64,000 nt of DNA from Malania oleifera (taxonomy: Eukaryota > Streptophyta > Magnoliopsida > Santalales > Ximeniaceae). How positions within the stretch are numbered: position 1 is the stretch's first letter; each line of letters starts with the position of its first letter. This document shows positions 5,188 through 55,993 of the stretch, one piece after another. A program made the position numbers and the translations under genes. A model generated the notes under the pieces. The model worked only from the letters and a program-made list of their open reading frames with translations. It did no database searches and was not told where the DNA came from. The stretch is from positions 42,162,390 to 42,226,389 of the forward strand of contig NC_080425.1 of the NCBI RefSeq assembly GCF_029873635.1. The letters are read 5' to 3'.

Positions 5188-5625
5188 TCATGTCTTCTGA
5201 AACAACTGGCGAAGAGTTTCAACTTTGCCTTCCTCTTCCTCTTCCTCTTCGGCATTATTTGCTGCACCATTTTCAGGGGTTTGTGAAGTACGCCCTGTTA
5301 ATTGAGATGAATATTCTGAAATGCAGAGTGAATATTCATGCTGGGGTGGGTTGGAAATATTGAACATGGCTTCTGCCTGCTCGGTTGATGTCACGGTTAC
5401 ATTCAGTGAGCCTGCAGAAGAGCACCTGGACAGTGTACCGGACACAACCGTGAGAATTTCATCCCTCTCATCTATTGTTGATTCAAGTGAGCAGGTTGAT
5501 GTCGTTGTTCCAGTACGAGAGAGAAATGAATCACGTTTAGACTTCTCCTTCACTCTCTTACACCAATTGTGAAGGGATTCTCTGATATTCTCAGCAATCA
5601 AGGCTTTCTTACTCCGAGATCCCAT
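5188..5625 (-). CDS. MLO: MLO last exon (calmodulin-binding domain and tail)
   Basis: The acceptor is GGCTGCAG just before ATGGGATCT. The exon encodes 145 aa starting [20 protein letters not shown], followed by W and KRVKEKSK; this is the MLO calmodulin-binding helix, with L18 and W21 of the exon forming the LxxW pair. Ser/Thr-rich segments, a run of seven Glu and the end [10 protein letters not shown] follow. Extending the frame upstream of the acceptor adds seven codons that are intron. Confidence 0.93.
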   Translation of the reverse strand: MGSRSKKALIAENIRESLHNWCKRVKEKSKRDSFLSRTGTTTSTCSLESTIDERDEILTVVSGTLSRCSSAGSLNVTVTSTEQAEAMFNISNPPQHEYSLCISEYSSQLTGRTSQTPENGAANNAEEEEEEEGKVETLRQLFQKT

Positions 5626-8600
5626 CTGCAGCCACCACAGATCCAAGTATTATCAGCATAGCTACAAAACAAGTGCATAAAGTTTTCCTCTGCAGAATCT
5701 ATTTATGTGAATGCCCCGCTAGTATGTTGAATGTGAAGAAAATACTTCTCAGGGACTTGCAGCTAACCATAAAAGAAAAACAGTGATAGCGATAAAATCT
5801 TAACTCCATTCAAATAAAATTATGTTCTGTAAAAATTTTGAGCTTATTTAAAATTCCAAGTGTTAAGTGAAGATTAAAAAAGAGGCTAGCTATTTTATTG
5901 GTAAATTTCTTTAGTGCTATTTTATTGGTAAATTTCTTTAGTGCCACTTAAAATGTAGAACGCATTCCTCCTAATCTGCAAAGCATAGTGAAAACCATAA
6001 TAGCATGTATTCTCCATTTACTATACACAATTCAGCTGTCAGACCTGATTTGGGTGAAACACTTTTAATCTCTACAATCACTCTAAACAAATACTTCTCC
6101 CCAATTCAATTTAATCAAGGGCCATATCCTCCTTTCAATCAAAGTTGATTATCAGTTTTTAGTCACTCCTAAATCCAATTTCTTTTAGCCTTTTCGTTTG
6201 AAATTCTCAAAAAAAAAAACAAAACCATTCCTGTTACTGCAGCTAAATGCTTTGATGTTCATAACCACTCTCCTATGTTTAAAGACTTTTCATCAACTGA
6301 AGCTACATTCTTTTCCGCATTCTGTTTCAGCTTCTGTCTATTGACATTTACACGTATATTTCTGCTATGGCTGCCAATTTCCACCATTTCCTGACTTCTA
6401 ATCCACATAATCTTATAGTTAAATCCTAAATGTTGTCTTCTCATGCCCAACTAAACCTTCAGATTCTGAAGATCTTTTCATTATTTTGGTTTGGCAACCA
6501 AAGATATGCTTTCTTCAAACAAGATATGGAAGTGACAATTAATGTGCCTAGTGTTGAGGCGATTAGAACCAGGGCTTAGGATCAACAGCCCAGAATGCTT
6601 CCAATAGCCCAGCCATGCACTGCCATGGCTTCAATCAAGTTACCTAGCGACTGACGTGGTGCAGGGCTGTGCTTGAGCAGCAGTGCCTAGCAAGTAATCC
6701 ATCACAAATACAGAGTATTAGGACTAAGAAGTCAGCTTGAAGAATGCCCAATGCAATTGGATTTACTTGTTGCTGTTCTTCAACCGTTCTCTATATTTTC
6801 TGACCCTTCATCAGGAAGCCTAGAAAATGGATCATGTTTCTGCTGATTCTTGTCGTAGTTTCTAGGTTACTAATTACACCTGAAGATGGAAATCCTGTTG
6901 CTAAGGTATTATCCCTCTTTTACCCTAGTATTTTGTGACAGTGAACTTTCATGGCTCTTGTATGCTTTGTATGGCCAATATTTCAACACTCAACGAAATA
7001 AAGTACAACAATTTGATACATCTATTCCTGCTAATGTGCATATACACGTTTTACTCATTCTAGTTCATCTCTAAGGATGGCCAAATGCATGGTTGCTGAT
7101 TCAGAAAAACATTCACCACCATTATGTAGAAGTGGAGCATTTCGGTACAGGGGAATGAGATGCAGTATGGCATGTGTTCTAAAATGCAGTACATTTGGGG
7201 TGTGCTTCTAGACATAAGGCGAAAATGTATATGGCCCTCGTATATTTAAGAGAACATCTCAGGTTTTTTCTCAATTTTGATAGAGATTTTCTTAGTGAAG
7301 TAGATTGACAATGACTAAAAAGAAAATTGTAATGTTAAAAGCTCAACTTTTACTAGCAAAAATGTCACCAGAAAAATATTGAATTAACACTTTGGATCAG
7401 GTTTTGTAAAGTTTGTACTGATTCAAACTTCATTAGGCATTATTTTTTACTCATAACAATGGCATTCACTTGTTTTCCGACCTCGTCTAGCCCTTCCCAA
7501 TAAGGGATGATACTTACTAGTTGGGCTAAAGGAATTGGGTATCTAAAACATTCTCAAACTCATAATGATCTGCAGTATACAATAGATTGAAGGTTTGCTC
7601 ATACTGAGATGGACCGAAATATACCCGTTCTGCACATATATGACAAAGCAACATTTCCTTTCTCCAATGCAAAGAGGAAATTTTCCAACATGAAGCAAAT
7701 AGATGGGGTTTATATCCTCATTTAATTAGTGTACATAACTGCAGAGCATTAATAAGAGAGATATACAAGTAATTTGAAAACTAACCCCCGTCAGAAGATT
7801 CAGAACATGGAATATGACAAACTAAGGTGAAAGAATACATATATGGCTACTATTAGACCAACATAAGATGTATATGACCATTTAATAAAATCCAGACTAT
7901 GATGGAAATTTTAAAAATTTATTTTCACGGCAATAACCATAGCTGGATTTAATAACCAAAAAATTAAAAAAAATACTAAATATGTGATGTCTATCCCAAA
8001 CCGATGTGCTAGGGTTTGTCAAAGTGAGTTGAGGATGCCACTAGAGGAGGCAAATTTGAAATACCCTGATTACTGTGCGTGTACGTTATTTCTACATAGA
8101 ATAAACTACTGGTTTGATGCGAGAAAACTACACATTTTGGGCCATCAAAATGTCAGAATTAAATTAACCACACATCCTAGAAGCAAACCTGTGTGACAAT
8201 TACATTCAGAGGCACTGTGCTATAGCTACACCAGAATTGAACAAGGAGCCTGCACATACAAAAGAAAAAAAAATGTAAGATGCTTACTACCTACAAAACT
8301 TTCATGTTTTATCCCTGTGAATACTTAATAATAATAAATTTGCAGCACAAAGAATTAAGGACTTAACAAACTCATTTGGCTGGCTGACTTGATTTTTCAA
8401 CCTCAAGGCTTAGCACTTTTAAATGAGAATGCTTGCTTGCATTTTGCTCAAACTGAAGAACTATGCAGCACATGATTAGCCATAGTAGTATATATACAAA
8501 AGCAATTAATGATCCAAAGCTCAATAGATACTTCATAGCAAATTCAGTAAGTTTTGGTCCAATAAACAATAAAAGTAAACCAATTTACAACTCCCACACC

Positions 8601-11600
8601 ATATCGAGGTGTTTGGGGAGGTGACAACTACATAGCTTTACCTCCACATTTGTAGAGGCTATTTCCATGACAAAAGCCTCTTACCTTTAGGTTTGAGTGT
8701 GCATATGCTTGAAAGTGCTGTTTACCCTAGATCATGAACTTGACCCACATTGAAGTTGCATGCACACAATTTCTTTTTCTTTTTTTCAAATAGAAAACTT
8801 GTCCTCTGACAATTATGAACTAATTGTAATTCCTATGGAGGTAAGAAGAAGAGAAGAAAAGCAGAAGAAAAAAGAGGCAGCAGTTTCCTGGAGCACACAT
8901 ACAGCTCCAGGTCTGCCCCTTACATATTAATAAAAGAAAAGACATAAAAGACAAAAATGCCCCCACTCAAACCACATAATTAAAATAGTACATTCTACTC
9001 TAATGCTCCCCTCTAGTTGGAGGTGTATACATATCACCTAACCCAAGTTGTCACAACCATTAGACAAGGTATGCTTAAATAAAGCTTTCATGAGAACAAT
9101 GCCTAATTGATTTGTTCACAAATGGAGTCCTCACAAACTTTTTCAAAACAATATGCCCTACAAAATGACAGTTAACTTCAATGTGTTTCATCCTCCAATG
9201 AAACACTAGGTTGCTAGCAATATAACAGCAACTTGATTCTCATAAAAAAATATCTGGGTTTTGAAACCAAGAATCCAACATTTGACATAAGAGACTTCTA
9301 CCACATAAGCTCATGCATAGCATGAGCCATAGCTCAATATTCTACTTTAAATCTTGCTACAGTAGTTGTTTCTTGCTATGCCAAGTAATGAGATTACAAA
9401 TGTGAAGTATCCAGCAGTACATCAAAGCTAGCCCGATCTGCATTAGAGTAGCCCATGATCTCACAGTTTCTATTACATTTATACACCAAACGTCAACCAA
9501 GAGAGCATTTGAGATACCACAAAATCTTACAAACAGAATCCTAGTGTGGTTGTTTGGGATTTTCTATAAACTGACTCACCACCCCCCACAAAAAGAATAT
9601 GTTAGGTCAAGTGATCGTCAAATAGATCAACTTGCCAACCAATTATCTATATCAATGTTTGTCTTTGAAGTCTAGTCCAACATCCCTAGACAACTTCATG
9701 TTGGGATCCTTAGGACTATCAGTTGGTTTAGTCCCAACATTCCAGCCTCATTTAGCAACCCAAGTATATTTTTTTCTATGACAAATTCAACCCTTTTTAC
9801 GTCGTACAATCTCAATACCAATAAAGTAATGAAAAGTACCCAAGTCCTTGATTTGAAGAGTTTCTTGAAGCCATCACGGCATCACTATCAATGATGATTA
9901 TATCATCGACATTAACTACTAGAAGTACCACACCAGCCTCCTTTTTGTGGGCAAAGATAAATGATCAATGTAGCATTAGATAAACCATATGTAGTCCAAG
10001 TACATTTTTGCTATGACAAATTCAACCCTTTTTATATTGTACAATCTCAACGCCCATAAGCAATGAAAAGTACCCAAGCCCTTGATTTGATGTGTAACTT
10101 TAAGCCACTACTTCACATCTGCAATCATGCTCTTATCACTGCCAATGGTGATCATATCATCAACATATCCTAGGAGTACCACAACTGTCTCCTTTTTAAG
10201 GACAAAGATTAAATGATTAGTGTAGCGTTAGATAAAACCAAATGTAGAGACCATCATACTGAATTTGTCAAACCAAGCTCAGGTAGATCGTCTAAGACCA
10301 TAGATGACCTTACGCAACCTATATACCTTATCGTCCTCCTCTTGAACAACATAACCACAAGGTTGGTCCATGTGGACCTCTTCTTGAAAATCTTCATAAG
10401 GAAAGCTATTTTCACATCCAACTCGTAACGGCCAATCAAAGTTAACTACCGACGAGATCAATACAAAATTGTTGGGGATGTGGCTCATATTCAGAGCGGA
10501 TCACATGTACCGGAGAGAGCTACTGAAGCAAGGGACAATTGCATGAGAAGAGGTTTCGGCAGTATGCAGGAGGACCTTTGCTCAGCACAAAACTGTCGAC
10601 GGTTTTCGTCAGCACAGATCATGTAAATTCAAATCGGGGACTTGTAGATTAGGCTTATCTAGAGGATTTTACTCTGGGGGATTGCTACAAATGTAATTTA
10701 GTTATACTAAAACACTTTTGTACGCATTAGATGTTATATAAACATCATTACATAACCCTATTGGGGTGAGAGACATTGATTATAGTGAAAACCCAAATGT
10801 TGCTCTCGTGGACGTAGGCTATTGCCGAACTACGTAAATCTTGTGTGTTCTAGAAGTGGTTTTGATTCTTCTTATCATTGTTTGATTGCTTCTTGAGTAT
10901 ATTTCATCGTCGAGTGCTTGCATTAGGTTGTTGATTGATTTGTGTGATTGTGTGCTTCCACAGCACGTGTTCAAGTTGAACGAACATCAACAAGTGGTAT
11001 CAGAGCTATTGGTTCTATGATGGCTGGGGTCTCTTCGATTAAGTTCGATGTGAAAAATTTTGATGGAACTAGTAATTTCAGGCTTTGACAACGAAGGGTG
11101 AAGGACTTGCTAGTGCAGCAAGGGATGGTGAAGGTGTTATACGAAAAGAAGTCAGACGACATGAACAACGCAAGTTGGAAGGAACTTGAAGAAAAGGTGG
11201 TTTCCACGATCAGGTTATGTCTGGCCAATGACATGCTGTATCACATCATGGATGAGGACTTGCCGGCAGCGGTTTGGCTGAAACTAGATCGCCGATACAT
11301 GTCCAAGTCTATTTCGAACAAGTTGTATCTTAAACAAAAACTTTATTTGCTTGAGATGGAGGTGGGTTCGGACTTGACTCAGCACATCAACACATTTAAT
11401 CAGATCATTAGTAATCTAAGGCGAGCTAATGTGAAGTTTGAAAAGGAGGACAAAGCACTGATGTTGCTGAATTCCCTACCTACGTTTCCTATATACGAGA
11501 ATCTAGTTACAATGCTGACTTGGGGGAAAGAAACCCTTATTGGAGGACATCACGAATGCATTGCTGGGGTTCCATCAAAGGAAGAAGGGCAGCGATGAGG

Positions 11601-14600
11601 GTTCACATGGTGAAGGGCTCGTGGCAAAGTCTAATCAAGATCGTGGGAGAGGCAAGTCCTGGAACGGATCGAGTGATAATAAAACTCAGTTTAGGAGGAA
11701 GAAGGATGTTCGTTGTTTTAAGTGCGGGAAATAAGGGCACATAAAACTGGAATGTTCGGAGTGGGAGAAGGGAAAGGCAAAGCCTTAAGAGGTTTCATCA
11801 AAATCCTTGAATGTAGTTGAAGAAGGGGACTCAGAGAGCAATGATGGTGATATGTTTACTGTTTCATCAGGTTCAGAACGCCTCACGGGTTCTTGGATCC
11901 TAGACTCGGGATGTTCTTTTCACATGGTGAAACAGTGCAATTTGCAAAGTTATCGGAATGGGGGATATCAGGATCAAGATGTATGATGGTGTGTTAAGGA
12001 CGTTCTGTGGGGTAAGGCATGTACCCAATCTACGGAAGAACGTGATATCATTGGGTGCTTTGGATTGTGATGGGTATAGCTACAAGTCCAAAGGAGAGAC
12101 AATGATGGTGTATTGATGGTGATCAAGGGACAGAGGATAGTAGGGAATCTCTATGCACTGCAAGGTAACACTGTTGTAGGTGGAGCTACAACTAAGAGTT
12201 CTGAGTCAGAAAATACTATTTTGTGTAATGTAACCACACACAAAACGGTGGGTATTATTAACTACATAGTTGTGGATGTTTGGGGACAGGTGAGGGCAGC
12301 ATCACTGGTTGGACATGGGTATTTCGTGAGGTTATCATGAAAGGTCTGGGGATATCTCATGCAGCATAAGTTGGAGATGTTTGCCAAGTGTAACTTGTGG
12401 GTGAGGTGGAGTACCAGACCAGGAGAGAGTTCCTCGGGTCAGATATTGTTGCTAAGTACGCTGGCGTTCAAGGAGTTTTGTGAGTAGGGCATGGTGTATG
12501 AAGGGCTTGTAAGGGACTTCTTGGTGAAGTTAGTGAGTATGGCGTGTTTCGCAGTTGATCGATCGCCAAAGGTATCACTAGATGGGAGAGTTGCAGGAGA
12601 GGCTTGGACTGGTTATGCGGTAGACTTTGGAGGTCCACCTCTGCACGTTTCTAGTGAGATGGGATCTAGGCTTTGTGTTATGTACGGACAATGCATCTTC
12701 CTGGTATATCATAAAGATGGGTTCAAGCAGGGTGGCGATTGGTGGAGACATGGTTTTAGGTGTTGAAGCCATGGGACAACGTACTCAAGTAGATGAAGAG
12801 AAAAGGGTGCCAGAAAGCTACAGTGGCAACAATGAGCATGTTGTGCACGTGGAGTTGGAGACTCAGGATAGGACTGCAGGGAGTTCTAACTTAGGAGACT
12901 TACAGTATTAGAGGATAAACTGGAACAAAAAAGAGATTGTGATGCAGGTGGAGTTTCAGACTCAGTGCGGAAATACGTTCAAACTCAGGAGACCAACAGG
13001 TTCACAATTGGCTCAGAGGCGCTATCGGGCCACTGCCAGGTGTGATATGATGTCTTATGCAACCATTACTACCAGGAAGGATCTTACTACCTTTCAGGAA
13101 GCAGTACACGACCAAGAGAAGAGTAGGTGGATAGGTGTCATGGTGGAGGAAATGGAGGTATTGTATGAGAATCAAACAAGGGGGTTGGTGGTGCTCCCAG
13201 AGGGGGAAAGGGAGATAGGTTGCAAATGGGCAATAATTCTATTGTTTTGTGTGAGTGACATGCATATTGCTAGAAAGGTTCCAATTGAGGTAAATCAATC
13301 GAGAACTCTATTGAGAAAGGAAGTTGACATAAAGGTGTTGAGTGCTACCAAGAGTGTTCTTAGGTTGGAGATTCGCAAGGTTAAAGTTACAGAGAAATTG
13401 GAATTATCTCAGGGTGACTTTGTAGCAACGTGGAGACTGGTGTTATCTTAGGGTGACTGTGTGGACAAAACTACATGAAGATTGTGGTTATCTCAGGGTG
13501 GTTTTGGGGACCAGGTGTTGGTGAGGTTTAGCATGGTTAGTGTTAAACCGATCACCAGTACACCGTTAGCGAATCTAAGTAAATAGTCTACCGCTCAGTA
13601 CTTGAGGACGAATGGGGATGTTCAGGTTGTGTTAGGGTTCCTACGCCAGTGCAATTGGGTACTTTGGCGGGCCACAGAGGGTTCTGTCAGTTGTGAGGTT
13701 CGTAGATGGAGACTACACAAGGGGCTTGGATGATAGGAGGCTTGCAACGGGGTACGTTGTGGGAATGCGTAATTGTTGGAAGTCTAGGGTACAGTCTCAG
13801 GGTGCATTGGTTACAACTGGATCGGAGTTCTTGGCAAAGGCTGAGGCTACCAAGGTAGCATTGTGGTTCAAAAGATCATTCAAGGAGCTGGGTGTTCAGT
13901 TAGGTGAAGTTCCTGTTACCATGGTCAAGTTCAAGCGTGGCTCGGACTTAGTTTATGTCTCCAGGTGTTAGAGGGGAGGCGAGTCCCAATCTACAAGGCC
14001 TGGGTGAAGCAGCGGTTATGCTTTCAGATTTCCAAGGTGGTAAATTTTCACTAAGGTGGAGATTATTAGAGACGTGGCTCATATTCAGAGCGGATCACAT
14101 GTACCGGAGAGAGCTACGTGAAGCGAGGGACAATTGCATGTGAAGAGGTTTCAGGCAGCATGCAGGAGGACCTTTGCTCAGCACAAACCGTCGACGGTTT
14201 CCGTCGGCGTAGATCACGTAAAGTCAAATAGGGGACTTGTAGATTAGGCTTATCTAAAGGATTTTCCTCTAGGGGATTGCTACAGATGTAGTTTAGCTAT
14301 ACTAGAACACTTTTGTATGCATTAGATGTTATATAAACATCATCATGTAACCTTATTGGGATGAGAGACATTGATCATAGTGAAAACCCAAGTGCTGCTC
14401 CCGTGGACATAGGCTATTGCCGAACTACGTAAATCTTGTGTGTTCTAGTTGTGGTTTTGATTCTTCTTATCATTGTTTGATTGCTTATTGAGTATATTTC
14501 ATCGTCGAGTGCTTGCATTAGGTTGTTGATTGATTCGTATGTGATTGTGTGCTTCTGCTACACGTGTTCAAGTTGAACGAACGTCAACAAAAATTTAGTC

Positions 14601-40824: not shown

Positions 40825-40863
<39 letters not shown>

Positions 40864-45008: not shown

Positions 45009-45046
<38 letters not shown>

Positions 45047-48000
45047 TGTGTTATTAATGAGATTTCTTTGATGGGAAGAAATCTATTAAGTTTCTCATGC
45101 ATAATTAATAGGATGCCTAATCCTACAATTACATGGAGGCCAGTGTAAGGGTCATAAGGAACCTTAAGAATTAGTTGATATCAATTTTCATCACTTCTCA
45201 ATCCGGTAGCTATTTGTTTGAACAGCAAATGGCTGGAGGTAATTATGATAATTCCGTCATATATATATATATATTAGGGTATACAACATGTGATAATTTG
45301 TTGGTTTAATATTTGTCTGCTTTCATTTCACCTTTCATATAGTGGTTTATTAACTTTGTGTATTAAGTGTTTTACTAAGAGAAATTGATATTTTAGAAAT
45401 ATGAATATGTGTATCATGTGTCTGAAAAACCTGCGTGCTGCGCAGATCATTACGCTAGTTAATATATAAAAGGGTAGACCTGAAGCTGTATGTAAGGCTC
45501 AAGAAAAACTGCCAACTGGTTTTTTGTTGGTTTAATATTTGTTTGCTTTCATTTCACCTTTTATATAGTGATTTATTAATTTTGTGTATTAAGTGTTTGA
45601 TTAAGAGAAATTGATATTTTAGAAATATGAATATGTGTATCATGTGTCTGAAAAACCTGCGCACTGCACAGATCATTACACTACTCGAATCCCCATGAAA
45701 GAAACAGCTCTATTTTGCTCAGAGCTCAACCAAAAAAGACAAGGGAAAATGCATTATCAGCCAAGGGCCCTTCCAAAAATGGATCCAAGAGCCCCTCCCC
45801 ACCTCAAATTTAGTGCGATGGATGAAAGAAGGATAAATCTAAGAAATGGACCTTTACAGACTACCCAGAGAACATCTTAAACTAACATTGGTATCCCACC
45901 CATTCTCTATGCCAAAGGGACAATTCTTCTAGAGGGAAACGCCATAGCCATTTAGCTAAAAGAGCCATGTTTTTAGACACCAACTTCCCTAGGTCTAACC
46001 CTCCCCCCTTTTTCGACCTACAAATCTCACCCCAGCAAACTATGTGGTGCCTGTGATCCCCCTACCAGACCGCAAAAAGTCTCTCATGATTCTCTCTAGT
46101 TTGCTACGCATTCCCTGTCGGAATCTTAAATACAAACACTAAATATAACGGAATTCGAGAAAGACAAGCCTGGATCAAGGTTATTCTACCCCCTAAAGAG
46201 AAAAGAGCCCCCTTCCAGCCATTTAACTTGTCATTCACCCTTTCTACTACTGGATTTCAAAATTCCACTACTCTAGGATTACCCCCCAAGGGTGACAGGT
46301 CAATCCAAAATGCCACACCCCACTTTTATGGCCCTTTTCATCACTCGCTTGAAACATTCAAAGCTGCTAATCCATCTTTCCCCATATTAATTTGAAGGCC
46401 CAACACCCTCTCAAAAATTTAAAGAATACCCAAAATTCTGCTAAAGGAAGGGTTATGATCAGCAAGGAAGAAAATGGTGTCTTCATCAAACTAAAGATGA
46501 GAAACCACCACTCTCTCTCTCTCTCCCTACTTCTAGACCTTTAACCTACCCCCACCATCCTACTCATAAAAAGGGGGATAAAGGATCACCTTGTCTAATG
46601 CCCCTAGAAGCTCTAAACCAAAAGTATAGCATCCACTATTTGCCTCCCTCCCCCCCCACCCCCCCTACCCCAAAAACATTATTCGGGCAGTAGAAATGGT
46701 ATCAACAAGCACCTTACTCATCCTATTAGCTAAGACTTTAGTGATAATTTTATATACACTAGAAACAAGGCTAATAGGTCTAAAATCACCAACCTTAATA
46801 GATCTAGACTTCTTAGGCACTTGAGCAATAAAAGAGCAGTTGATGCTTTTGCTCAAAATTTCATTCCCAAAGAATTCAGTAAAAACTTTCAGCGAATCGC
46901 CACAACCTCTCAACAATCTTGGAAAAAAGCTACGGCAGCACCTCCTTCCTATCTCTGTGATCTCCCTCTTGAAGACCCCATGAGCATAAGCAGCAAGCCA
47001 GAAATGAGCAAAAGGGGGGAAATAAGAAAGCTAGTTATGTATTTACTTAAAATATCCCTTCCCCTCATCTATTTTTGAGATTGCCCCTCCTTAAATCCCA
47101 AATCCCTATTAACTTCTCCCGTTTACCACATTCTTTAATCCAAGTAATTTGTAAGTTTAGTAACTAAATAAAATTAAAGAAATTTACTACTTATTAGCTA
47201 ATTATAAATAATTTCATTTATTTGAATAATTTAGTTTCTATAATTTATTAGTAATTTTTTAAATTATCATTAATTTCATAAATTTAATTTAATGTTTGTC
47301 TTATTCATTAATTTTATTTTAATTTAGTGTCTACACAATTTTCCTTTAAAATTGTTGGTAAATTTAACACCTAAACATGCCTTCAAGAAAGTAAAATTAT
47401 CTACAAAAATGTACGAAGGAAGAAAACAAGATCCAACATGGGAACATGAGTACCCAATGCCCAATGTAAAAGAATGGATTTATATGCAAATATTGCGGAA
47501 TACAAATGAAGAGTGGTGGAGCAACTTGATTAAAGATGCACTTCGCAAACTATGATCCGCAGCATAATATAAAATTTTGTGATAAAGATGCACTTAGCAA
47601 ATTATGATCCTCAGCATCTGGAACAGGGCTTTACTTACTAAAGCTTTGTGGAATATCCATGCCAAAAAGGATTCCCTCTGGTCTAGGTGGGTTAACCAAG
47701 TGTACTTAAAGGGAAGAAGCATGTGGGAAGCTTATGCCAAACATGAGGACTCTCCTCTCCTCAAGAAAATTTTCGAGATTAAAGATCATATCCTGCAAGC
47801 TGTTAGTTCCAGCAGGGAAGCTGAAGAATTACTTAGAGGCTGGTTGGTTGGTGATCAGTTCTGCTGTGCATTGGCTTACCAGTTCTGGAGATTTAAAAGT
47901 CAAAAAGTGGCCTGGCACTCTGTGATCTGGAAAAGTGGTAATACCCTGAAACATGCCTTTGTTCTGTGGCTTTGCACTAGAAATAAAATTCTTACAGCAG

Positions 48001-51000
48001 ATAAGCTGCCTGTTGAAGGTGCAGACAAGCTTTGTTGCCTGTGTTCTGCTGAATCTGAATCCATGAGCCACTTGTTTTTCAATTGTTGTGTCTCATTGAC
48101 AGTTTGGAAACATCTTCAAGCCTGGCTGGGCCTCACTAGAAGAATGTCAACGATTAATGCTGCCCTCAAATGGCTTCACGAAGAAGCAAAGGGTACTGGT
48201 ATACAAGCCATTGCCAAAAGAGTCTGCTTTACCTCAATGGTCTATTTTATTTGGCATTTCAGAAACAAAAGGAGGTTAGTGTTACCTCATCGGCCACAAT
48301 GATTAGAGTAATTCAAAGTCACACCTACATAATTTTATTTGGCAAATTTCCTCAGTTCATGAAGTCCTGGGTGGAAATTACTTAGTTGTACTTCTTTTTT
48401 TGTGATAGGAGTGTTTTGCCCTCGTGGCCCTGGGAATGCCCAGGATTGTTTTGTGGCTTTTTAGAGTTGCTTTCTGTTTCTCTTGGCCGGCTGGCCCTAG
48501 GTATGCCCAGTTCTGTCTTTGATTGATTGGTGTTTGCTTGGGAGCTTTTGCTTCCTTTCTCAGGGTAAGCCCACATATTGTACATATCCTTTTTGATCCA
48601 TACAATTTACTTTAACTGATTAAAAAAAAATGAGAATCATTTTAGAAAGAAAAACAGCAAGTAAAGCAAAGTAGAATCGAAGAAAAAAAAAAATGAATTG
48701 CGAGGAAATTTGATGCAGCCACAAGAAATTGATGAATAGGATGATGCTGATGATATTGTATACCCATCTAACATTTCTCCCTATGAGAGGTATGCATACC
48801 ATTGAGCACTTTAAAACTAGGGCTGCAAACAAGCCGAACTTTTATGCGTTCAGGCTCAACTTGATAGACTACAGGCTCATCTCAGGCTCGGGCTTGAATC
48901 AAAGAGAGCTCAAAAATCTGGGCTTGATCTCGATTCGAAAACAAAACTCTAAGCTCGGGCTCCCAGCTCGGGCTCCCAGCTCAGGCTTGGCTCACTTCAC
49001 CTTCCCATGAGCCCAATTTTCAGGAATTCATTTTTTATGAGTTTAAAAAAAATCTTCTTTAAAAACTAAAATATATTTAGTACAAAATGAACTTTAAAAG
49101 CAAGCCCATTCTACCATTTGAGATAAAGCCCCGACCCGCTGTCCATAAACTTGTCTGTTTAGTAGAACAAGGTCACATTTTATAAGGAAAAAGGTGGGCG
49201 CTTAAACTTTTGAGGTAGGTAATGTGGGACAAGCCTCTCATATCCCCTCCATCTCAGCGATCAATGACGGATGAGCCTAGGTAGCCCCTTCAGCAGCATT
49301 TGCAGAATCATGGCGGCATGCTGCCCATATCCATCACCATTCCTGATCAGTGACGCCATGTTCCATGCTTGAATTATTATTAATCATGTCGCTGGAATAT
49401 TCCATTTCGCACAACATAACACAACAGTAGCTAGAAACAATTGTCATCCGGCGATAGGAGATGCTAGGTTCAGCACTGGTTTCCACCACCCCTGAGAAAC
49501 CCATTATCAAAGATTCTAGCACTCTGACTGGGAAGGCAGGCCCAAGACTATCACCAAGAAGAGAGCTGCCGCTGCCACTACCACTGTGATAACTAGATGA
49601 TGGGCAATCTTGAGTTGTATGGCCTGAAGCTTTTAATTTGATTTTGTGCTTGAGAGTTTGAACAAGAAAAGTGATTAACATTATGCGGATTAGAGGATTT
49701 TTTTTGGGGGGGGGGGGGTGTATAGAGGAAAAGTAGAGAAGATAAAAATGAGAGGGAAGGAAGGAAGGAAGCAATGCCTCAGCATCTTCAAGCTTCCCAC
49801 ATGAACAAAGAGACTTAACAACTAAAGTTGTCGCAGCCTGCAACTTTCTCTTGATTAAGCCCTGCGTTTTATGCTGAATGAAGGAAATTTATTATCTTTT
49901 CTGCTGAATGAAGCAAATGTATTTTTGTTTTGTCAATTTGCAGCTAAATTATTTAATCTTGCTCTACTAAATTAAGCTCATTTATTATTATGGACTCAAA
50001 ATATAAAGCTAGGGTTGAGCATGAACAAGCCCAATCCAAGCTTATTATCGAGTCTAACCGAGCCTTTACTCAGTTGCTCACGAGCTAAAACAAGCCAAGC
50101 CCATCTGTGCTTAGGCTAAAACTAGGCTCGATAATTGCACATTTATATAATAAACAAGCCTTAACGAGCTCTTACCGAGCCAAGATCTCGAGCTGCTCAC
50201 AAGCGGCTTGGTTAGTCTGCAGCCCTACTGAAAACAGACGGAATGGGAAAGAGACCAATCTCGTAGGTTTGCAGATTGCTAACAAGTAGGCAAATCTGGG
50301 GCTGGTAGCAATGGAGAGCGACCAGCCATGAGTTGATCACGAAGCGTGAGAGAACCAAAAGCAAAGCCATATATTTCAAAGCCTCCTTAGTATACAAGCA
50401 AAAAAACTTTCAAAATTTATTCAAAGGAGGTAAAATAAAAGAAGAAATTATAGGTTGATTTTAAAAGTTCTTCATATATAATAATGTTCCACCTAAGGAG
50501 GCATAATCACCTCACTTTAAAAACATAGTGTTGGGTTGTTATGCAGCTGGAATGGGAGTCAATTCACTAACACCCTATCAGAGTAGAACAAAATACCTTG
50601 ACTTAGGTAAAAGAAATGGAAGGCCACGTAAAAGAAGTGAAGAACAAGTGAGCCACATATGACTGCACTGTAATGTCTAATGAATGGATAGGCCTTACAA
50701 AATTATCTATCATAAATTTCATGGTTTACTCCAAAGGGAGTAAATTTTTTCTTAAGTCGATAGATGCGACAAAATAAAAGACCATGAATACATATACAGC
50801 TTATTAAAACATGTTGTGCAAGAGGTAAGAAAGAAACTCGTTGTTTAGGTGGTGATAGATAATGGCAATGCATATAAGAAAGCAAGTCTAAAATTAAAGA
50901 AAAAATTCAACTTGTACTAGACTCCATACACTGCTCATTGCATTTGTCTCATTTTTTAGGAGATCAAAATAAGAGAGGCAATAAGCACAGTGATCTCGCA

Positions 51001-54000
51001 AGGGAGACAAATCACTAATTTTATTTATAACCATGGATGGTTGCTTGCTAAAATGAGGGAGCACTATCGAGGGGATATTGTGTGTATAGGGGCTACACAA
51101 CATGCTACAAACTATATTGCCTTTGATAGCCTACAAAAGAAAAAAGTAGGCCTATAATCTCTATTCAAATTTGATGAATGGGCTAAGCATTCTCTTAGAC
51201 AAAATTTGGTAGAGAAATTGAAAGCACAATTTAGAGTGGCTTTACGAGCCCACATATCAAGTATTGCACATAGTTGACAGTGAAGTGTGACCGACATTAG
51301 GAGTTGTGTTTGAAGCAATAAGGGTGATGAAGGAGGCCATTAAGTAGGGGTAAGAACTGCAAGATGGGTTCTCAAAGAAATCAGTGAATGGTGGGAGAGA
51401 ACCTTGATCATCCTCTTCATGCAGAAGGTACTAAAATTTAATATTTATAAATTTCAAAATTCTTGTATCAAATTACTTATTAAATTTTTCTTTAATTGAT
51501 TGACAACTTATTTTCTAAATTCAAAATTTCAATACAAAGAAGTTGTCAAGGAAGATCCTTATCTACTAGAAGCAGTTCATAATGTTTTTATGACCCTTGA
51601 GCCACATTCCTCTAGGCTGAATCAAACTAAAAATGAGGTATATTTTCAAAATAAAATTTGAACAAAATAAGTCTTAATCCATGTTTATTCATTTAATAAC
51701 AAAATTTTTTTTCTAAATTATTTTATTTAAAGATGCAAAAACAAGCTTTGTAGAAGCAGCTACTCAGGCAGCTAGGGCAACGATGGCACCTAGTAAGTGT
51801 TTATGCATAAATGCATAATACAAAGTTACAAACTTCAATTACAATTCTACTAAATAATAACTTATGCTCTTAAAATATCTTGCATGGTTGATTTGTGGAT
51901 GATGTACGGATTAAGTGCTCCAACCCTAAAGAAGCTAGCATTGTGCATTTTGTCACAAACTACACCTTCATGAACTTGTGAATAGAATTGGAGCACATCT
52001 GCACTCATTCATAAGGAGCAAAGAAATAGGCTAACCTACATTAGAATTCAACAACTTGGTTTTTGTTATTACAACATGAAGTTTCGAATAGGAGATATGG
52101 AGGTTGAAATGAACAAAGTTTCTAAACAAGATCTCCCGGACCTTCTTGACATATCAGTTGAATTGGGTGATGATGATGAGTATCCATTTTTCCAGTGGAT
52201 TAGACCATCTCATCTTTATGAACGAGATAGAAGTCTCCGCCCACAAATAGCCAAAGGATGAGTATCCACTTTTTTTAGTGGATTAGACCATCTCATCTTT
52301 ATGAACGAAAAAAGAAGTCCCCACCCAAAAAAGGCCAAGCACACACAACATGAGTTTGGCATTGATATTAATCAAATAATGGTAGAAGAAGAGATATCTA
52401 GCAGTGATGATTCACTAATGAATCTTGGGTCTAGATATGGAACTTCATTCACTATGCCCTCTGGTGATAATGATGACGACAATGCTGGTGGTGATGAATC
52501 TAACACCAGTGGTAGTAGTGGGCAAGGTGGTGATGGTGGGGACTGGGGACTATGGAGGAAATGAGGGATGGAAAGACTATAGACCAATAGTGGACTATAC
52601 ATGTTCTCCCCAACTAGAAGATGAGGATCTACAAAGAGAAACATATCTAGTTGACAGGCAATATAGTCGTAGAAAGGGAAAGGGGAGGATGCATCAATTA
52701 GAAGAGGAGACCTTTCCCTTAGTTTAGAATCTTTGAATATAGGTAAATAGCATCACTCCAGTAGTTATAGTGGTTATCAGTCTACCCAAGAAAGTTTCTC
52801 ATAGTCAACATATGGCCAACCATTTCCATATGCATATGAGTAGGCACGACAATATGGAAACTGGCAACCACATACCTATGGTATGGACAAACAAGCCAAG
52901 AATATGGGTATGCAAATGCAGGGCAATCCTATAGACATACACAACAAGTAGAACATGCAAGAAAAGATCATGGTAAAAGACGATCTTCTAGCCAAGCATC
53001 ATAAACTACCATCAATCAAATGACTATGGAGGAGAATGAACAACACATGTACACCTATACTTAATATTTGGGAAATTATATGACATGGAATGATTATTGA
53101 AAGCAATATATGTCATATCAAGATCCCAATGATAGGGATAGGAGAGATGACTTTGAGCCACCACGAAACTACATGTGGCATTAGATCATTAAATGTATAA
53201 TATTTATTGACAATGTATTTATTTAAAATAATAAATTTTTTGGCTTAAATCATCAAATGAATAACTCGAGAACTTTATAATCATCTAAATGTTCTTCACT
53301 TCATAGCTTACTTCACGATGTGCAGTTTATTGCCCTAAACACTAAAAACTTGTCATATATGCATTTTATAAATGTATTTTGATGCCATATTAAGTACAAT
53401 AATCTATTTTAATATTTTCTAAAGTTTGATTGCAAATTTCCATCATTTACTATAAATTCTCGTAATTTCTTTAAACAAAAATTCAAATCGAAATTGAAAC
53501 TTCTGTTGAAATTTCCATAAATTGAGAGCATCAAATTTCCATCGAAATTGAAATTTTTGTCTTTGATGACCCACACTAACTTTGATATCTTATTCCCCTA
53601 TGTTTTGGGTTTTGGACCTTATAGTGTCTGACCCAACCTTATCACATCTTTTCTTCCTCCCAAAGGACCTCCCAATAAATTTAGAAGCTTCCCTTGCAAC
53701 CTGACCAATTTATCGCATGGTGTTGGGATACCTACTAGGACAAAACCCCCTCCCCTCCTTTATCCCTTTAGTTGCAAATGAAAGCCATTTTTGGATCAGA
53801 ACTAGCCACCAAAACTCCTTTGGTAACATTGGCAAAGGAAAGTCTCTGGAACATGCTCTTACTTTTGTCCTCTAGTCTAACATTTGAAGAGCCACATTCT
53901 AAGCATCTCTAGTTGCCCTTGTTGGCTCTGGAGGACTTGTCCAAGGATGACGAGAATTCCAACAGCCCAATAAGACCCTCCACCATTTTTTTTATCATCC

Positions 54001-55993
54001 TCGGGATTACGAACATCAAGGAGGCACTTGCTACTGTCCTTTTCCATGCAAACAAACTTGCCTCTTCCATTTTCAAGAACCTTCAAACTCACATGTTCCC
54101 ATCCATTGTGAATTTGGCACCAAGACAACTAGCAATAGTCCAATCATTGGCCTCACAGAGCACATGTAGAATCTTAGGACCCACACGAGTTCCTCCTTGT
54201 CCAACGCGATGTATAAGACACGTCTTCCTGCATAGTCCATGATAGTACATTGCTAAGACCAAACGTATGACTGAGATCACTTTTCTTTTAGTTTGGAATG
54301 CAGTGAGCTCTCCCATCCCTGTGTCAAGTACGGGCAAGACGAAGAAGATAGGCCAAAAAGTCAAAAGAACACTGGGTTAAGAGATTGAGGCACAGCGAAG
54401 CAATGGAGGAATCAGCAAACTTTTTGGTTCAGAAAGATCGGAATCGAGTCTAAGGGTCTCGAAGCTGAAGAACCTAAGAATCGAATGACTTCTCTCGAGT
54501 GACTATTGTAGCAAAAGCCTCAATGAACGACTTAAGAATCCTTATGGTATCACCAAAGAGGAGAGCATTGCACGCCTTTTAACTAGCATATTCAAAATTG
54601 CACTTTTTCTTCTTTTTCTTCCTCTTCTCTTCTTCTTTTCATCTGTAACCCTAAGTGTTATATTTTCTTCAAATTTATATTAGTTTTAAAAGGCAAGAGC
54701 GTAAGGTGAGGCATTTTAACCTCTAAGAGGCAAGCCGTAATTCTTTTGAGAATTTTATTTTTAGATAAAAATACGTAAACATATAATATATCTTTAAAAA
54801 AATATAGAAAAATTAAGAAAATTACAATAAAATATGTATACATGCATACACACACACACATGTACATATATAATTTGTAAACTACTTGTTGGGCATTCAA
54901 AAAATACTATCTTGAATTCATTAAGTAAACCATTCCAAGAGATAGCCTATGCCTTAGTGTGAAGTGTTGGCCGTTTTGGGATTTGGTAGTTTAAATTGAG
55001 CCTCAGGTCATTTTAGGCATGTCTCATCTTAAGGCAAGTCTCAATTAAGTCTTCTAAAACATTACTCTTGACCAAAAAAAGTTGCTTAAAATAAAATTTA
55101 TATGCTTAAAGTAAGATTAGTTTAATTGTTTAAAATCATACGAATTCAGTTTCTTCAAAATAGTTTCATGAATAATTTGGGTGTCAATGCCTTTTAATAT
55201 TAAAATAGATATCCTTCAACAAATCTATCAAGGGAAAGAGAGATGTATCTTAAATTTATTTCATTGATGCATGATTTAAATTGAATCATGAGTTTTCCTG
55301 AATGTCCTTCACATATCTCCTTTTTCCAAGTATATTTCATATTAGTTGAGTTCATGAAGAGGGTCTTGTGGGCCTATAGATAAACCCATTAGCATTGTCA
55401 CTCCATAAAATTCTTATTTCATTCCAAACCTAAAGAGTTTTTTTCTCTAAGAAAGTAAAATTTCTAGTGGGGATTTGGACTCTTCCATTCGTTCAAAATT
55501 GGTGTGTCATGATTCAATTGGACTGCTGTATCCTAAGAGAGTCAAGAGGTGATATACCCAAGCCACAAAGAGCTTGAATCACATTAAAGCGAGCGAGATT
55601 CCACATCTCAGCCTAGTGGATTAGTGCTTCTAATCAACTATCTGTGTCACTTTTTTTCATAAATTTGTATATATTTCATACCAATGTGCAATTTCCAATT
55701 TGTTAAGGCAAATAGTCCTGCAAATTTATCTCCATGAAGATGCTGATTCTAGTGCACTTTTCAAATGACTATGTGAAGCCATCGGCAACACCAACCACCA
55801 AACATTAATGTCATTCACTTTAAAGATAATGGGAATCAAAGGGGAAAAAAAAAAAACAAACAAATGGAAACTCTAGAATAATAAAAAAAAATATTCAGAG
55901 TGCATACCTGATCCCCACAATTCCATGAAATTCATCTTCCATGCTTCGAACCATGTACTGATGAAAATTATAAGAAAGTGGGAGCTTGTGGTT
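5188..55993 (-). CDS. MLO: MLO family protein (clade I, MLO4/11/14-like), C-terminal 316 residues over eight exons; 5' end outside window
   Basis: Eight minus-strand exons, each bounded by AG and GT and matching in phase, encode 316 residues of a seven-transmembrane MLO protein. Visible segments are the third cytoplasmic loop end ([11 protein letters not shown], about 14-24), hydrophobic spans at about 30-65, 102-130 and 143-170, the VGTKLQHV and [12 protein letters not shown] motifs, and a C-terminal calmodulin-binding helix (about 177-197) with the conserved LxxW pair (L189, W192). The tail has CSLEST, DERDE and SLN motifs, a poly-Glu stretch and the ending QLFQKT, which resemble MLO4/11/14. 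Known family roles: plasma-membrane proteins with calmodulin control, implicated as Ca2+ channels; MLO4 and MLO11 shape root touch responses. The family is about 570 aa, so roughly 250 N-terminal residues should lie right of the window. The gene body here is over 98% intron. Open exons and clean splice sites argue for a functional gene. Confidence 0.92.
5626..8188 (-). other. MLO intron, 2.56 kb
   Basis: AT-rich and without any recognised transposon. A 27-bp tandem duplication lies at about 5889-5942. Several small open frames (for example near 6259-6450 and 6886-7074) have no family features. Confidence 0.6.
8189..8249 (-). CDS. MLO: MLO exon (seventh transmembrane region)
   Basis: A 61-bp exon with acceptor GTATGTGCAG and donor GTTTGC encodes [20 protein letters not shown] after completing a Gly codon. 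This is the conserved MLO segment directly before the MGS of the last exon. It is too short to show as an open frame by length alone; it was found by its family motif and by phase. Confidence 0.93.
10470..10992 (+). repeat. 5' LTR of Copia 2
   Basis: It begins TGTTGGGGATG and ends CATCAACA. It carries a TATA-like ATGTTATATAAACAT segment, suggesting the former promoter, and is followed by the primer-binding site. Confidence 0.85.
14064..14589 (+). repeat. 3' LTR of Copia 2
   Basis: Matches 10470-10992 along its length with about 8% difference by eye. It ends ACGTCAACA directly before the target duplication AAAAT. Confidence 0.85.
16626..16882 (+). repeat. 5' LTR of Copia 3
   Basis: A 257-bp repeat starting TGTTGGAAAG and ending ACTGACA. 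It matches the two parts of the right LTR (21447-21507 and 23746-23959). Confidence 0.88.
21508..23745 (+). mobile_element. Solo LTR (about 2.2 kb) inside the 3' LTR of Copia 3
   Basis: The sequence begins TGTTGGCCTCACAAGGC and ends ACTTTTCA, and is flanked by AGAAA on both sides (21503-21507, 23746-23750). It has no coding domains, primer site or purine tract. It contains AATCTTATTTTGATGATAACA near the start and a poly-C run near the end, as in LTRs of SIRE/Maximus-type Copia elements. The simplest reading is a solo LTR left by recombination between two LTRs. It is the youngest visible layer of this nest. Confidence 0.75.
22601..22810 (+). repeat. 70-bp tandem repeat, three units
   Basis: Units start at 22601, 22671 and 22741 with ATTTGACGAT and contain GGTTATTGGATCGTTG and AGAAGGGGTATTC. 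The second and third units are nearly identical and the first differs slightly. They lie within the solo LTR. Confidence 0.9.
24145..30638 (+). mobile_element. Tekay-like Gypsy fossil (Gypsy B) nested in Gypsy A
   Basis: The left LTR starts at 24145 (TGTAATAACC) and the right LTR spans 28947-30638 (TGTAGTAACC to CATGACA). The two are of unequal length. The flanks ACTAG (24140-24144) and ACTTG (30639-30643) are a near-perfect 5-bp duplication. A purine tract AAAGGGAGAT precedes the right LTR. Parts: gag with a CCHC knuckle (25180-26120), protease (about 26280-26520), RT (26660-27500), RNase H (27640-28110), then an integrase C-terminal/chromodomain-like end (28380-28620). The gag layout and chromodomain fit the Tekay/Del chromoviruses. 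Broken in roughly ten or more places; LTR divergence is several percent by eye. Confidence 0.85.
28947..30638 (+). repeat. 3' LTR of Gypsy B with internal tandem array
   Basis: A 1.69-kb LTR. It carries an AT/CT microsatellite (29000-29120) and, at about 29760-30300, an array of diverged units of roughly 55-65 bp sharing GTGGGGTCAATAATGACATG and CCGGTTT. A related array (GCCATGTCTCGGCTAAATACCG) occurs in the LTR at the right edge of the window. Confidence 0.8.
33290..33457 (-). mobile_element. TRIM-like relic, partial
   Basis: On the minus strand an LTR-like segment (about 33388-33457) is followed by GCTATCAGAGCC (primer-site-like) and the family's internal CAAGTTACCAAGAGGTCCTA segment. The second LTR is missing. 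Same family as 1381-1735. Confidence 0.65.
33754..34905. mobile_element. Non-autonomous hAT element, 1.15 kb
   Basis: The ends are inverted: TAGGACTGCAAACAAG at the left and TTTGTTTGCAGCCCTA at the right (the reverse complement begins TAGGGCTGCAAACAAA). Subterminal regions are rich in AGCTCGGGCTCAAGCTCG-type motifs. The flanks GATATAGT (33746-33753) and GATAAAAT (34906-34913) match at six of eight bases, fitting a decayed 8-bp hAT duplication. It interrupts a Copia RT. No transposase is present; the interior has a short tandem duplication (about 34072-34170). The same family occurs at 48818-50227. Confidence 0.78.
35340..36000. repeat. AT-rich repeat with TCGAAATTTC motifs
   Basis: Both ends are dense in GAAATTTC/CGAAATTT motifs (35350-35510 and 35930-35990). 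The middle is AT-rich and non-coding. It interrupts the Copia 4 relic. Its right end resembles 53420-53570, downstream of the hAT transposase relic, so it may be a non-autonomous DNA transposon of that family. Exact ends and target duplication were not resolved. Confidence 0.45.
36630..36906 (+). mobile_element. TRIM-like relic, partial
   Basis: A primer-site-like TGTCAGAGCTTGGG (about 36633) and the internal segment are followed by a purine tract with a long G-run (36803-36820) and a 75-bp LTR (36832-36906, TGTTGAATAGC to GTCTAACA). The left LTR is not recognised. Diverged member of the 1381-1735 family. Confidence 0.55.
36907..37463. other. Intronic stretch without recognised features
   Basis: AT-rich MLO intron sequence between the last transposon relic and the exon at 37464. 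Nothing recognisable on either strand. Confidence 0.5.
37464..37531 (-). CDS. MLO: MLO exon (loop before the seventh transmembrane span)
   Basis: A 68-bp exon with acceptor TTGTTTAG and donor GTATGT. It encodes [20 protein letters not shown] then AC and the first two bases of a Gly codon. The [10 protein letters not shown] motif is characteristic of the clade I MLO loop. A longer open frame overlaps it in another phase and should be ignored. Confidence 0.92.
37840..38830 (-). mobile_element. RTE-type LINE fragment
   Basis: The minus strand encodes the endonuclease-to-RT region of a plant RTE element. Recognisable pieces are WWWDQEVQ (about 38510-38540), the frame 37999-38472 with [15 protein letters not shown] and [16 protein letters not shown] (the RTE 'IPIEVWK' block), and remnants of the following RT block down to about 37840. 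Both ends are missing and stops interrupt the upstream part. It lies in the 3.34-kb MLO intron, in the same strand sense as MLO. Confidence 0.8.
38925..39920 (-). mobile_element. Probable L1-derived fragment with 3' tail
   Basis: On the minus strand, weak ORF1-like open segments (39421-39681, 39231-39494) are followed by a 3' end reading TTGTAACTTCTCTTTCTTGA, then CTAATATACC and a run of A (T-run at 38921-38930 on the plus strand). A nearly identical 3' end occurs at 41940-41997 on the plus strand. No RT is seen, so this is probably an internally shortened copy. Moderate to low certainty. Confidence 0.5.
39960..40665 (+). mobile_element. Copia RNase H to 3' LTR fragment (Copia 5)
   Basis: The plus strand carries the end of a Copia polyprotein: RNase H with YINADWDGS and [15 protein letters not shown]-like motifs (40000-40480), a purine tract (CTTGAGGGTGAG), then an LTR of about 180 bp (40486-40665, TGTTAATGATT to TCTAACA). 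It is truncated on the left and broken. It lies in the MLO intron, antisense to MLO. Confidence 0.72.
40826..40861. repeat. (GA)n microsatellite
   Basis: About 17 GA units. On the MLO (minus) strand it is a (TC)n tract starting about nine bases after the donor of the 36-bp exon. Confidence 0.95.
40872..40907 (-). CDS. MLO: MLO 36-bp exon
   Basis: Acceptor TGTGAAGCAG, donor GTGAGA. It encodes [12 protein letters not shown], the conserved start of an MLO transmembrane span (family form [13 protein letters not shown]). Both boundaries are in phase 0. It was found by motif; it is too short to stand out as an open frame. Confidence 0.93.
41017..41187 (-). CDS. MLO: MLO exon with VGTKLQHV and FWFGKP motifs
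   Basis: A 171-bp exon with acceptor CTTGCCCAAG and donor GTGATG. It encodes 57 aa from [13 protein letters not shown] to [11 protein letters not shown], including [16 protein letters not shown]. These are hallmark MLO motifs in the cytoplasmic loop and the next membrane span. Both ends are in phase 0. Confidence 0.95.
41277..41317 (-). CDS. MLO: MLO 41-bp exon
   Basis: Acceptor AATGCTGCAG, donor GTAAGT. After completing a Gly codon it encodes [13 protein letters not shown], the MLO membrane span before VGTKL. Confidence 0.93.
41408..41457 (-). CDS. MLO: MLO 50-bp exon
   Basis: Acceptor TGATATGCAG, donor GTAATT. It completes a Ser codon, encodes [16 protein letters not shown] and ends one base into a Gly codon. 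It matches the MLO span usually written SWPLWVYAI...NVHG. Confidence 0.93.
41885..41997 (+). mobile_element. L1 3' tail, severely 5'-truncated
   Basis: TTTTGTAACTTCTCTTTCTC, then AATCTAATATACC and a 13-base A-run. It matches the 3' end of the minus-strand fragment at 38925, suggesting a very short LINE insertion. The left limit is uncertain. Confidence 0.5.
42383..42686 (-). mobile_element. TRIM-like element with both LTRs
   Basis: LTRs of 73 bp at 42383-42455 and 42614-42686 on the minus strand flank an internal part with a CAT/GGCATTAGAGCC primer-site-like sequence and a TGCAGGGAG purine tract. The flanks AAACT and AAACC differ at one of five bases, fitting a decayed duplication. Second nearly complete copy of the 1381-1735 family. 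Confidence 0.75.
42690..42960 (-). mobile_element. Possible Copia 3' end relic
   Basis: On the minus strand a CTAGCTTGAGTGGGAGAG purine-tract-like sequence is followed by an LTR-like stretch (CAAGTTTATTATTGTCATTT, then a TATAAATAG motif), similar in plan to the Copia end at 40450-40665. A poly-C run lies at 42908-42920. Weak evidence. Confidence 0.35.
42961..45299. other. AT-rich intron sequence with microsatellites
   Basis: No gene recognised. It contains a purine-rich GA stretch (43208-43255), AT-rich low-complexity sequence (44330-44400), a (TG)n tract (about 45016-45044) and an (AT)n tract (about 45259-45274). Small open frames at 44625-44852 and 44897-45148 look random. Confidence 0.5.
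45300..45683 (+). repeat. Direct repeat pair, about 158 bp
   Basis: Segments 45300-45457 and 45526-45683 both start GTTGGTTTAATATTTGT and end with CAGATCATTACRCTA. They are more than 90% alike by eye, with 68 bp between them. An L1 remnant begins directly after the second copy. Confidence 0.85.
45685..47090 (-). mobile_element. L1-type LINE fragment (RT region)
   Basis: On the minus strand, 46665-46916 encodes the L1 RT block [15 protein letters not shown] with KVLANRM. Downstream pieces include an RQGDPLSP-region remnant (about 46560-46620), a degraded catalytic box ([10 protein letters not shown] instead of the usual FADD, near 46470-46490), and the [11 protein letters not shown]-type thumb region (about 46160-46210). 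Stops and deletions interrupt it, and it lacks its 5' part and zf-RVT end. Dead copy inside the MLO intron. Confidence 0.75.
47340..47600 (+). pseudogene. hAT transposase relic, N-terminal BED zinc finger
   Basis: The frame from 47352 has [20 protein letters not shown]. In the neighbouring frame CKYCG follows (about 47486), the start of a BED-type zinc finger as in plant hAT transposases with DUF659. The two parts are in different frames and a stop follows, so it is broken. The rest of the gene appears at 50540-53200, after an L1 fragment and a hAT miniature. A 33-bp segment (GATGCACTTCGCAAAC...) is repeated at 47535 and 47587. Confidence 0.5.
47605..48632 (+). mobile_element. L1-type LINE, 5'-truncated, with zf-RVT domain
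   Basis: A frame of 232 codons (47604-48302) encodes a LINE C-terminus: [20 protein letters not shown] and VYLKGRSMW, a LVWKSG-like block ([18 protein letters not shown]), then [18 protein letters not shown], the CxxC...H...C zf-RVT knuckle. A 3' untranslated region and an A-run (48621-48629) follow. Truncated on the left. Better preserved than the other L1 pieces and sitting within the hAT relic, so probably a later insertion. Confidence 0.85.
48818..50227. mobile_element. Non-autonomous hAT element, 1.41 kb, possible captured sequence
   Basis: The left end TAGGGCTGCAAACAAGCCGA and the right end AGTCTGCAGCCCTA form terminal inverted repeats. Subterminal CTCGGGCTC / CGAGCTCTTACCGAG motifs match the copy at 33754-34905. 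The flanks TTTAAAAC (48810-48817) and CTGAAAAC (50228-50235) match at six of eight bases, fitting an 8-bp hAT duplication. The interior holds a minus-strand frame of 169 codons (49334-49843) with [10 protein letters not shown] and [16 protein letters not shown] segments. It is not a transposase and may be captured host sequence. Confidence 0.75.
50540..53200 (+). pseudogene. hAT transposase relic, DUF659 and hATC dimerisation regions
   Basis: Plus-strand segments, interrupted by stops and by probable introns (51430-51540, 51650-51730, 51790-51890), follow the order of a plant hAT transposase. A DUF659 block with [14 protein letters not shown] and [13 protein letters not shown] lies at about 50640-50900. 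Then come [16 protein letters not shown] (about 51010-51070) and a hATC block with [15 protein letters not shown] (about 51910-51960), NWS and KEQRNRL (about 51985-52030). The tail at 52076-52260 reads [20 protein letters not shown], then [11 protein letters not shown]; a near-copy of its last 60 bases follows (52258-52320). An acidic Gly/Ser-rich end runs to about 52730. Dead, but still easy to recognise. Confidence 0.78.
53201..53585. repeat. AT-rich 3' flank of the hAT relic with GAAATTTC motifs
   Basis: At 53420-53570 the sequence is rich in CATCGAAATTGAAATTT-type motifs, like the right end of the repeat at 35340-36000. It probably represents the subterminal end of the hAT element. Confidence 0.4.
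53590..54370 (-). pseudogene. Unidentified degenerate coding remnant
   Basis: The minus strand has overlapping open segments (54089-54364 and 53877-54128) that look like one broken reading frame, with [20 protein letters not shown] and [12 protein letters not shown]. The composition is protein-like and may be an L1 ORF1 remnant, but no domain is certain. Confidence 0.3.
54371..55907. other. Intronic sequence without recognised genes
   Basis: Contains a TTCTTC-rich stretch (54610-54640), an (AC)n tract (about 54847-54860) and AT-rich sequence. Nothing else identifiable. Confidence 0.45.
55908..55993 (-). CDS. MLO: MLO exon, most upstream one in the window
   Basis: An 86-bp exon with acceptor ATTACCAG and donor GTATGC. 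It encodes [20 protein letters not shown] followed by EFHGIVGI and two bases of a Ser codon completed by the 50-bp exon 14.45 kb away. The YNFHxYMVRxMEDEF motif is specific to MLO proteins. Upstream exons (HASHPWS and earlier) were not found between here and 64000. Confidence 0.94.

Follow-up and report, generated by a model that had tools for sequence, protein, structure and literature searches.

Eight exons of an MLO gene spread over 50.8 kb, and LTR retroelements within its introns, in Malania oleifera

Long MLO genes and enlarged introns in plants

In size and build, an already published MLO gene nearly equals the one described here. CsMLO5 of Cannabis sativa (clade VI) measures 49,009 bp in CBDRx and 49,673 bp in Jamaican Lion, with introns of 15.6, 7.9, 15.9 and 6.3 kb, and CsMLO10 (clade VII) measures 39,838 bp (PMC8475652). 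These long genes were mispredicted by software with the usual 10-kb intron limit, and manual curation was required. The clade I genes of the same plant, CsMLO2, CsMLO9 and CsMLO12, are 5,568, 6,542 and 3,999 bp long and comprise 15, 15 and 14 exons, respectively (PMC8475652, Table 1). Land-plant MLO proteins are predicted to have seven helices and a calmodulin-binding tail, and roles in root gravitropism and thigmomorphogenesis are described for MLO4 and MLO11 (PMC13360292).

Long introns have also been described on a broader scale. In Chloranthus, 876 of 2,184 orthologues exceed 20 kb, and introns of more than 20 kb are described for gymnosperms (PMC8626473, PMC9364684); the Chloranthus long-intron genes show higher expression, with a fall setting in only once intron length passes 40 kb (PMC8626473). 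In Arabidopsis, transcription through intronic retroelements needs repressive chromatin and IBM2/EDM2, which suppress early polyadenylation, and the loss of silencing leads to premature polyadenylation within the intronic elements (PMC10241880).

The locus analyzed here lies in a 64,000-nucleotide stretch of Malania oleifera DNA, referred to below as the window. Like CsMLO5 and CsMLO10 it is an MLO gene with a conserved exon plan enlarged by long introns, whereas those two genes belong to other clades and the longest intron reported for them in PMC8475652 is 15.9 kb, in comparison to 29.2 kb here. Words beginning with "transpos" occur 0 times in the main text of that paper, whereas retroelements were identified in the Malania MLO introns. 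The original expectation that automatic annotation would probably split or miss the Malania gene corresponds to what the paper reports for the long Cannabis genes. CsMLO2, CsMLO9 and CsMLO12 share the proposed clade, but the partial gene in the window is about 8 to 13 times as long as these. The long-intron genes of Chloranthus, magnoliids and gymnosperms likewise have introns enlarged by LTR retroelements, as described in genome-wide surveys (PMC8626473, PMC9364684). RPP7 and other IBM2/EDM2-dependent genes of Arabidopsis likewise contain an intronic retroelement that has to be transcribed through and spliced out; the mechanism was tested experimentally there (PMC10241880), and for the Malania MLO gene it is proposed by analogy only. 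The transposon-inflated MLO introns are a further example of a gene growth already known in plants.

The MLO exon chain, its family and its extent

Eight MLO exons were placed on the minus strand between 55993 and 5188. Each is bounded by splice sites and was matched by tblastn with an approximate MLO4-like query, which gave the values listed.

55908-55993, minus strand: exon A, the first in the window, 86 nt, E 5.5e-11
41408-41457, minus strand: exon B, 50 nt, E 9.7e-9 in a single alignment over exons B and C
41277-41317, minus strand: exon C, 41 nt, aligned jointly with exon B
41017-41187, minus strand: exon D, 171 nt, 82.4 bits, E 1.4e-21 jointly with exon E
40872-40907, minus strand: exon E, 36 nt, 30.8 bits, joint E value with exon D
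37464-37531, minus strand: exon F, 68 nt, E 2.2e-6, encodes QQSCFMKN
8189-8249, minus strand: exon G, 61 nt, E 9.9e-7
5188-5625, minus strand: last exon, 438 nt including the stop, predicted calmodulin-binding segment and acidic tail, E 1.7e-25

Joining of the exons gave 951 nt including the stop codon and 316 residues. Frame 0 contains the terminal stop only, while each of the other two frames contains 19 stops. GT...AG borders were found in 7/7 introns, the phases are compatible throughout, and the introns measure, from 5' to 3' along the gene, 14,450, 90, 89, 109, 3,340, 29,214 and 2,563 bp. The spliced product matched the Pfam family Mlo (PF03094) with 284.4 bits (cut-off 24) and E 1.7e-84, residues 2-209 corresponding without a break to positions 250-459 of the 483 in the profile. 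The eight-exon chain is therefore far beyond chance, and the original prediction of eight minus-strand MLO exons with canonical splice sites and matching phases was borne out, down to the exact junctions 8249/37464 and 41457/55908 and the two introns of 29.2 and 14.45 kb. The predicted coding length of 951 bp agrees with the exon sum, but it covers only the 3' half of the CDS, profile positions 1-249 being absent.

The window encodes only the C-terminal half of the protein, for which simple hydropathy scanning gave peaks at residues 24-42, 46-65 and 142-160. The loop cysteine encoded by exon F (QQSCFMKN) is aligned in 4/4 MLO sequences compared, the references being approximate. Twelve residues of the C-terminal tail align with ALTNWRNTAKEK of the approximate barley MLO sequence, with Leu and Trp kept, so that calmodulin binding is predicted. 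A search of the PDB gave no relative of the MLO part up to E 1, and no duplicate MLO exons stood out within the introns by tblastn with the approximate MLO4-like query.

Clade membership was assessed against AtMLO4-like, barley HvMLO (clade IV) and AtMLO2 (clade V) sequences, all of them approximate. The 316 residues are 60 % identical to the AtMLO4-like protein over 335 columns, in an alignment that runs through the last residue, in comparison to 42 % for HvMLO and 39 % for AtMLO2 over 195 columns each. These pairwise identities to three references favour membership in clade I (MLO4-type), and the clade I assignment made originally is supported to the extent of this resemblance.

The profile match starts at position 250, so that the upstream exons would be expected at higher coordinates; no 5' MLO exons were found between 56 and 64 kb by tblastn with three approximate MLO proteins, a search that a very short or divergent exon could escape. 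Outside exon A this region gave scattered matches of at most 23.5 bits, which lay on both strands, were not collinear and in several cases contained stops; they were rejected as candidates. The gene is thus either longer than 50.8 kb or a fragment: either its 5' half is absent or the intron upstream of 55993 exceeds 8 kb. The window holds the 3' half of an MLO gene, probably about the last eight of 14 or 15 exons, since the clade I genes of Cannabis have 14 or 15 (PMC8475652, Table 1). The proposal that an MLO gene extends across more than 50 kb holds for this 3' half; it does not describe the whole gene, whose 5' half was not found in the window and which would be longer still if complete.

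The large introns and the neighbouring sequences

The retroelements assigned within the 29.2-kb intron, the second largest intron and the gene adjoining the MLO exons are as follows.

8250-37463, minus strand: intron of 29,214 bp with splice sites, about 71 % assigned to LTR retroelements
10470-14589, plus strand: E1, Copia-type with gag, LTRs at about 10470-10992 and 14064-14589, 5-bp TSD AAAAT, LTR K2P 0.086
16626-23959, plus strand: E2, Copia (gag, RVT_2), 5-bp TSD ACAAC, 3' LTR split by an insert
21508-23745, no strand assigned: insert of 2,238 bp in the 3' LTR of E2, TG...CA ends, 5-bp TSD AGAAA
24145 to about 30638, plus strand: E3, Gypsy (RVP_2, RVT_1, RNase H), LTR K2P 0.092, outer ends putative
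30639-33153, plus strand: E4, an older Gypsy element represented by its 3' part (Pfam RVT_1, SH3_Tf2-1), with further pieces before 16621 and at 23965-24144
41458-55907, minus strand: intron of 14,450 bp with a LINE-type zf-RVT remnant and dispersed repeats, unassigned for the most part
4180-4620, plus strand: intact chloroplast ferredoxin gene

The assigned element intervals add up to 20,664 of the 29,214 bp (71 %), the right edge of E3 being taken as 30650. The LTRs of E2 differ by K2P 0.036 over 201 aligned sites, and the flanks of E3 (ACTAG/ACTTG) match at 4 of 5 bases. Judged by its TG...CA ends and 5-bp TSD, the insert in E2 belongs to the LTR type and may be a solo LTR; it carries a 70-bp tandem repeat in 2.9 copies. 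The pol region of E4 appears to be interrupted by both E2 and E3: its downstream part was identified by Pfam, and the flanks of E2 and E3, whose translations were judged by motif likeness, are presumably pol of this single element. The LTRs of E3 (24232-24791 and 29108-29679, plus strand) have a relative of about 70 % identity at 63144-63739 on the same strand, i.e. a related LTR lies upstream of the gene part.

Stop-to-stop frames of 85 aa or more numbered 89, and the Pfam scan covered 40 of them, 30 at E 0.001 and 10 at E 0.05. Matches were obtained in 15 of these 40 frames. One is the ferredoxin and the other 14 are retroelement pieces, a single one of which lies below the curated cut-off. 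Within the 14.45-kb intron 13 reading frames were scanned and two matched a retroelement family, with zf-RVT at 47598-48299 and RVT_1, below the Pfam cut-off, at 46668-47030. The description of the introns as filled with transposons is therefore apt for the 29.2-kb intron, with its share of about 71 %, but only partly so for the 14.45-kb one. Of the 13 retroelement pieces within the gene span, 12 are on the plus strand, antisense to MLO, and the weak one is on the minus strand; grouped as six elements, five are antisense and one is sense. This bias is not significant alone and is suggestive only. The frames 38002-38475 and 58450-58776, both on the minus strand and thus in the sense direction of MLO, gave no Pfam match; they look like the reverse transcriptase of plant RTE-type LINEs.

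The ferredoxin gene (Fer2 E 3.6e-22; best E 6.3e-49 among plant ferredoxins in the PDB) is convergent with MLO, the two stop codons being 567 bp apart. The Arabidopsis genes FD1 and MLO4 have the close locus numbers At1g10960 and At1g11000, so the ferredoxin-MLO pair may be a case of conserved synteny. No literature naming both loci was found.

Elsewhere in the window, the Rfam family snoR71 (RF00097) matched 61567-61673 on the minus strand with 50.4 bits (gathering threshold 40). On the other strand this place is occupied by a gag frame of Gypsy type (61324-61680; Retrotrans_gag, E 8.8e-15). Either the family model picks up antisense gag or a snoRNA-like stretch overlaps gag; a literature search on this gave no papers. 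By eye, positions 1-960 on the plus strand resemble the 3' terminus of a LINE that was truncated, its poly-A tail lying near 950. The window scan found no tRNA genes, and the window contains no N bases.

Functional state of the gene and alternative explanations

We consider it quite probable that the locus is the 3' half of a working MLO4-type gene that was enlarged by LTR retroelements and stands beside a convergent ferredoxin gene. The exon chain, the splice sites, the frame, the family and the intronic retroelements in this explanation are direct observations. LTR retroelements would have been inserted into pre-existing introns, mostly antisense to the gene, and later into one another, causing the gene to grow, while three introns would have remained at about 90-110 bp. 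Pol II would transcribe more than 50 kb, and the introns of 14 and 29 kb would be removed by the spliceosome. The encoded MLO protein would have seven helices, bind calmodulin and function in calcium signalling. As in Arabidopsis, early polyadenylation may be suppressed by factors of the IBM2/EDM2 type acting with heterochromatin that covers the intronic elements, which would allow full-length mRNA; the Arabidopsis introns of this type are smaller than those at the present locus. A further-reaching version, in which a working clade I MLO gene gives a primary transcript of more than 60 kb that crosses a three-level nest of retroelements within the 29-kb intron and depends on heterochromatin read-through factors, is put forward tentatively, the odds being somewhat against it. 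Such a transcript, if real, would exceed any MLO gene described in PMC8475652.

The open reading frame supports a working gene, which is plausible, without proving it. With the LTR pairs as a clock, simulations of 20,000 runs per setting followed the coding exons and 28 bases of the splice sites under neutral decay. At the age of E3, exons and splice sites stayed intact in 0.7 % of runs with the full LTR-calibrated rate, in 3.7 % with the transversion-calibrated rate, in 8.5 % at half rate and in 9.4 % when the transversion rate was combined with halved indels, the most lenient setting; at the younger age of E2, 14 % of simulations stayed intact. Methylation is usual for LTRs and their mutation rate exceeds that of exons, which is why the lenient figures matter. 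The low simulated survival supports continued selection without proof, weakly so at the lenient rates and at the E2 age.

The same simulated survival, up to 9.4 % at the E3 age and 14 % at the E2 age, leaves some room for a 3' gene fragment or a recent pseudogene, whose 5' half would have been lost or moved and whose open frame would be an undecayed relic. The failure of the three MLO queries to find a 5' exon between 56 and 64 kb points in the same direction, but an upstream intron of more than 8 kb would account for it too. Canonical sites and phase kept at 7/7 introns, the likeness to the approximate MLO4-like protein up to the C-terminus and the adjoining intact ferredoxin gene also argue against a relic, and this explanation is regarded as unlikely.

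Less likely again is a locus with genuine exons that seldom yields full-length transcripts, early polyadenylation within introns or internal initiation giving mostly truncated or chimeric transcripts. In the 14.45-kb intron, 28 sense-strand AATAAA motifs were counted in comparison to 16.3 expected from a first-order model (s.d. 4.5), an excess of 2.6 s.d. which, if the motifs are used, would favour early polyadenylation of the kind seen in intronic elements upon the loss of silencing (PMC10241880). The 29.2-kb intron, however, showed no such excess (21 vs 19.9 expected, s.d. 4.9), and the long-intron genes of Chloranthus, whose expression declines only beyond 40 kb (PMC8626473), also speak against this explanation. 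Finally, misplacement of retroelement sequence between the exons by the assembler, although repeats are present in the two largest introns, is very improbable, since the 5-bp TSDs, which are exact for E1, E2 and the insert within E2, fit a real insertion history, as do the differing LTR ages and the window free of N.

The working MLO4-type gene favoured here would be of modest practical weight. Breeders target MLO genes to obtain mildew resistance, and other roles of the family lie in roots and pollen, but the genes conferring resistance are those of clade V (dicots) and clade IV (monocots) (PMC13360292), and the present gene is placed by resemblance in clade I. Its seven visible introns, which range from 89 bp to 29 kb, illustrate how a 10-kb intron limit (PMC8475652) can lose genes from catalogues, and the locus is a dated record of the retroelement load within one gene.
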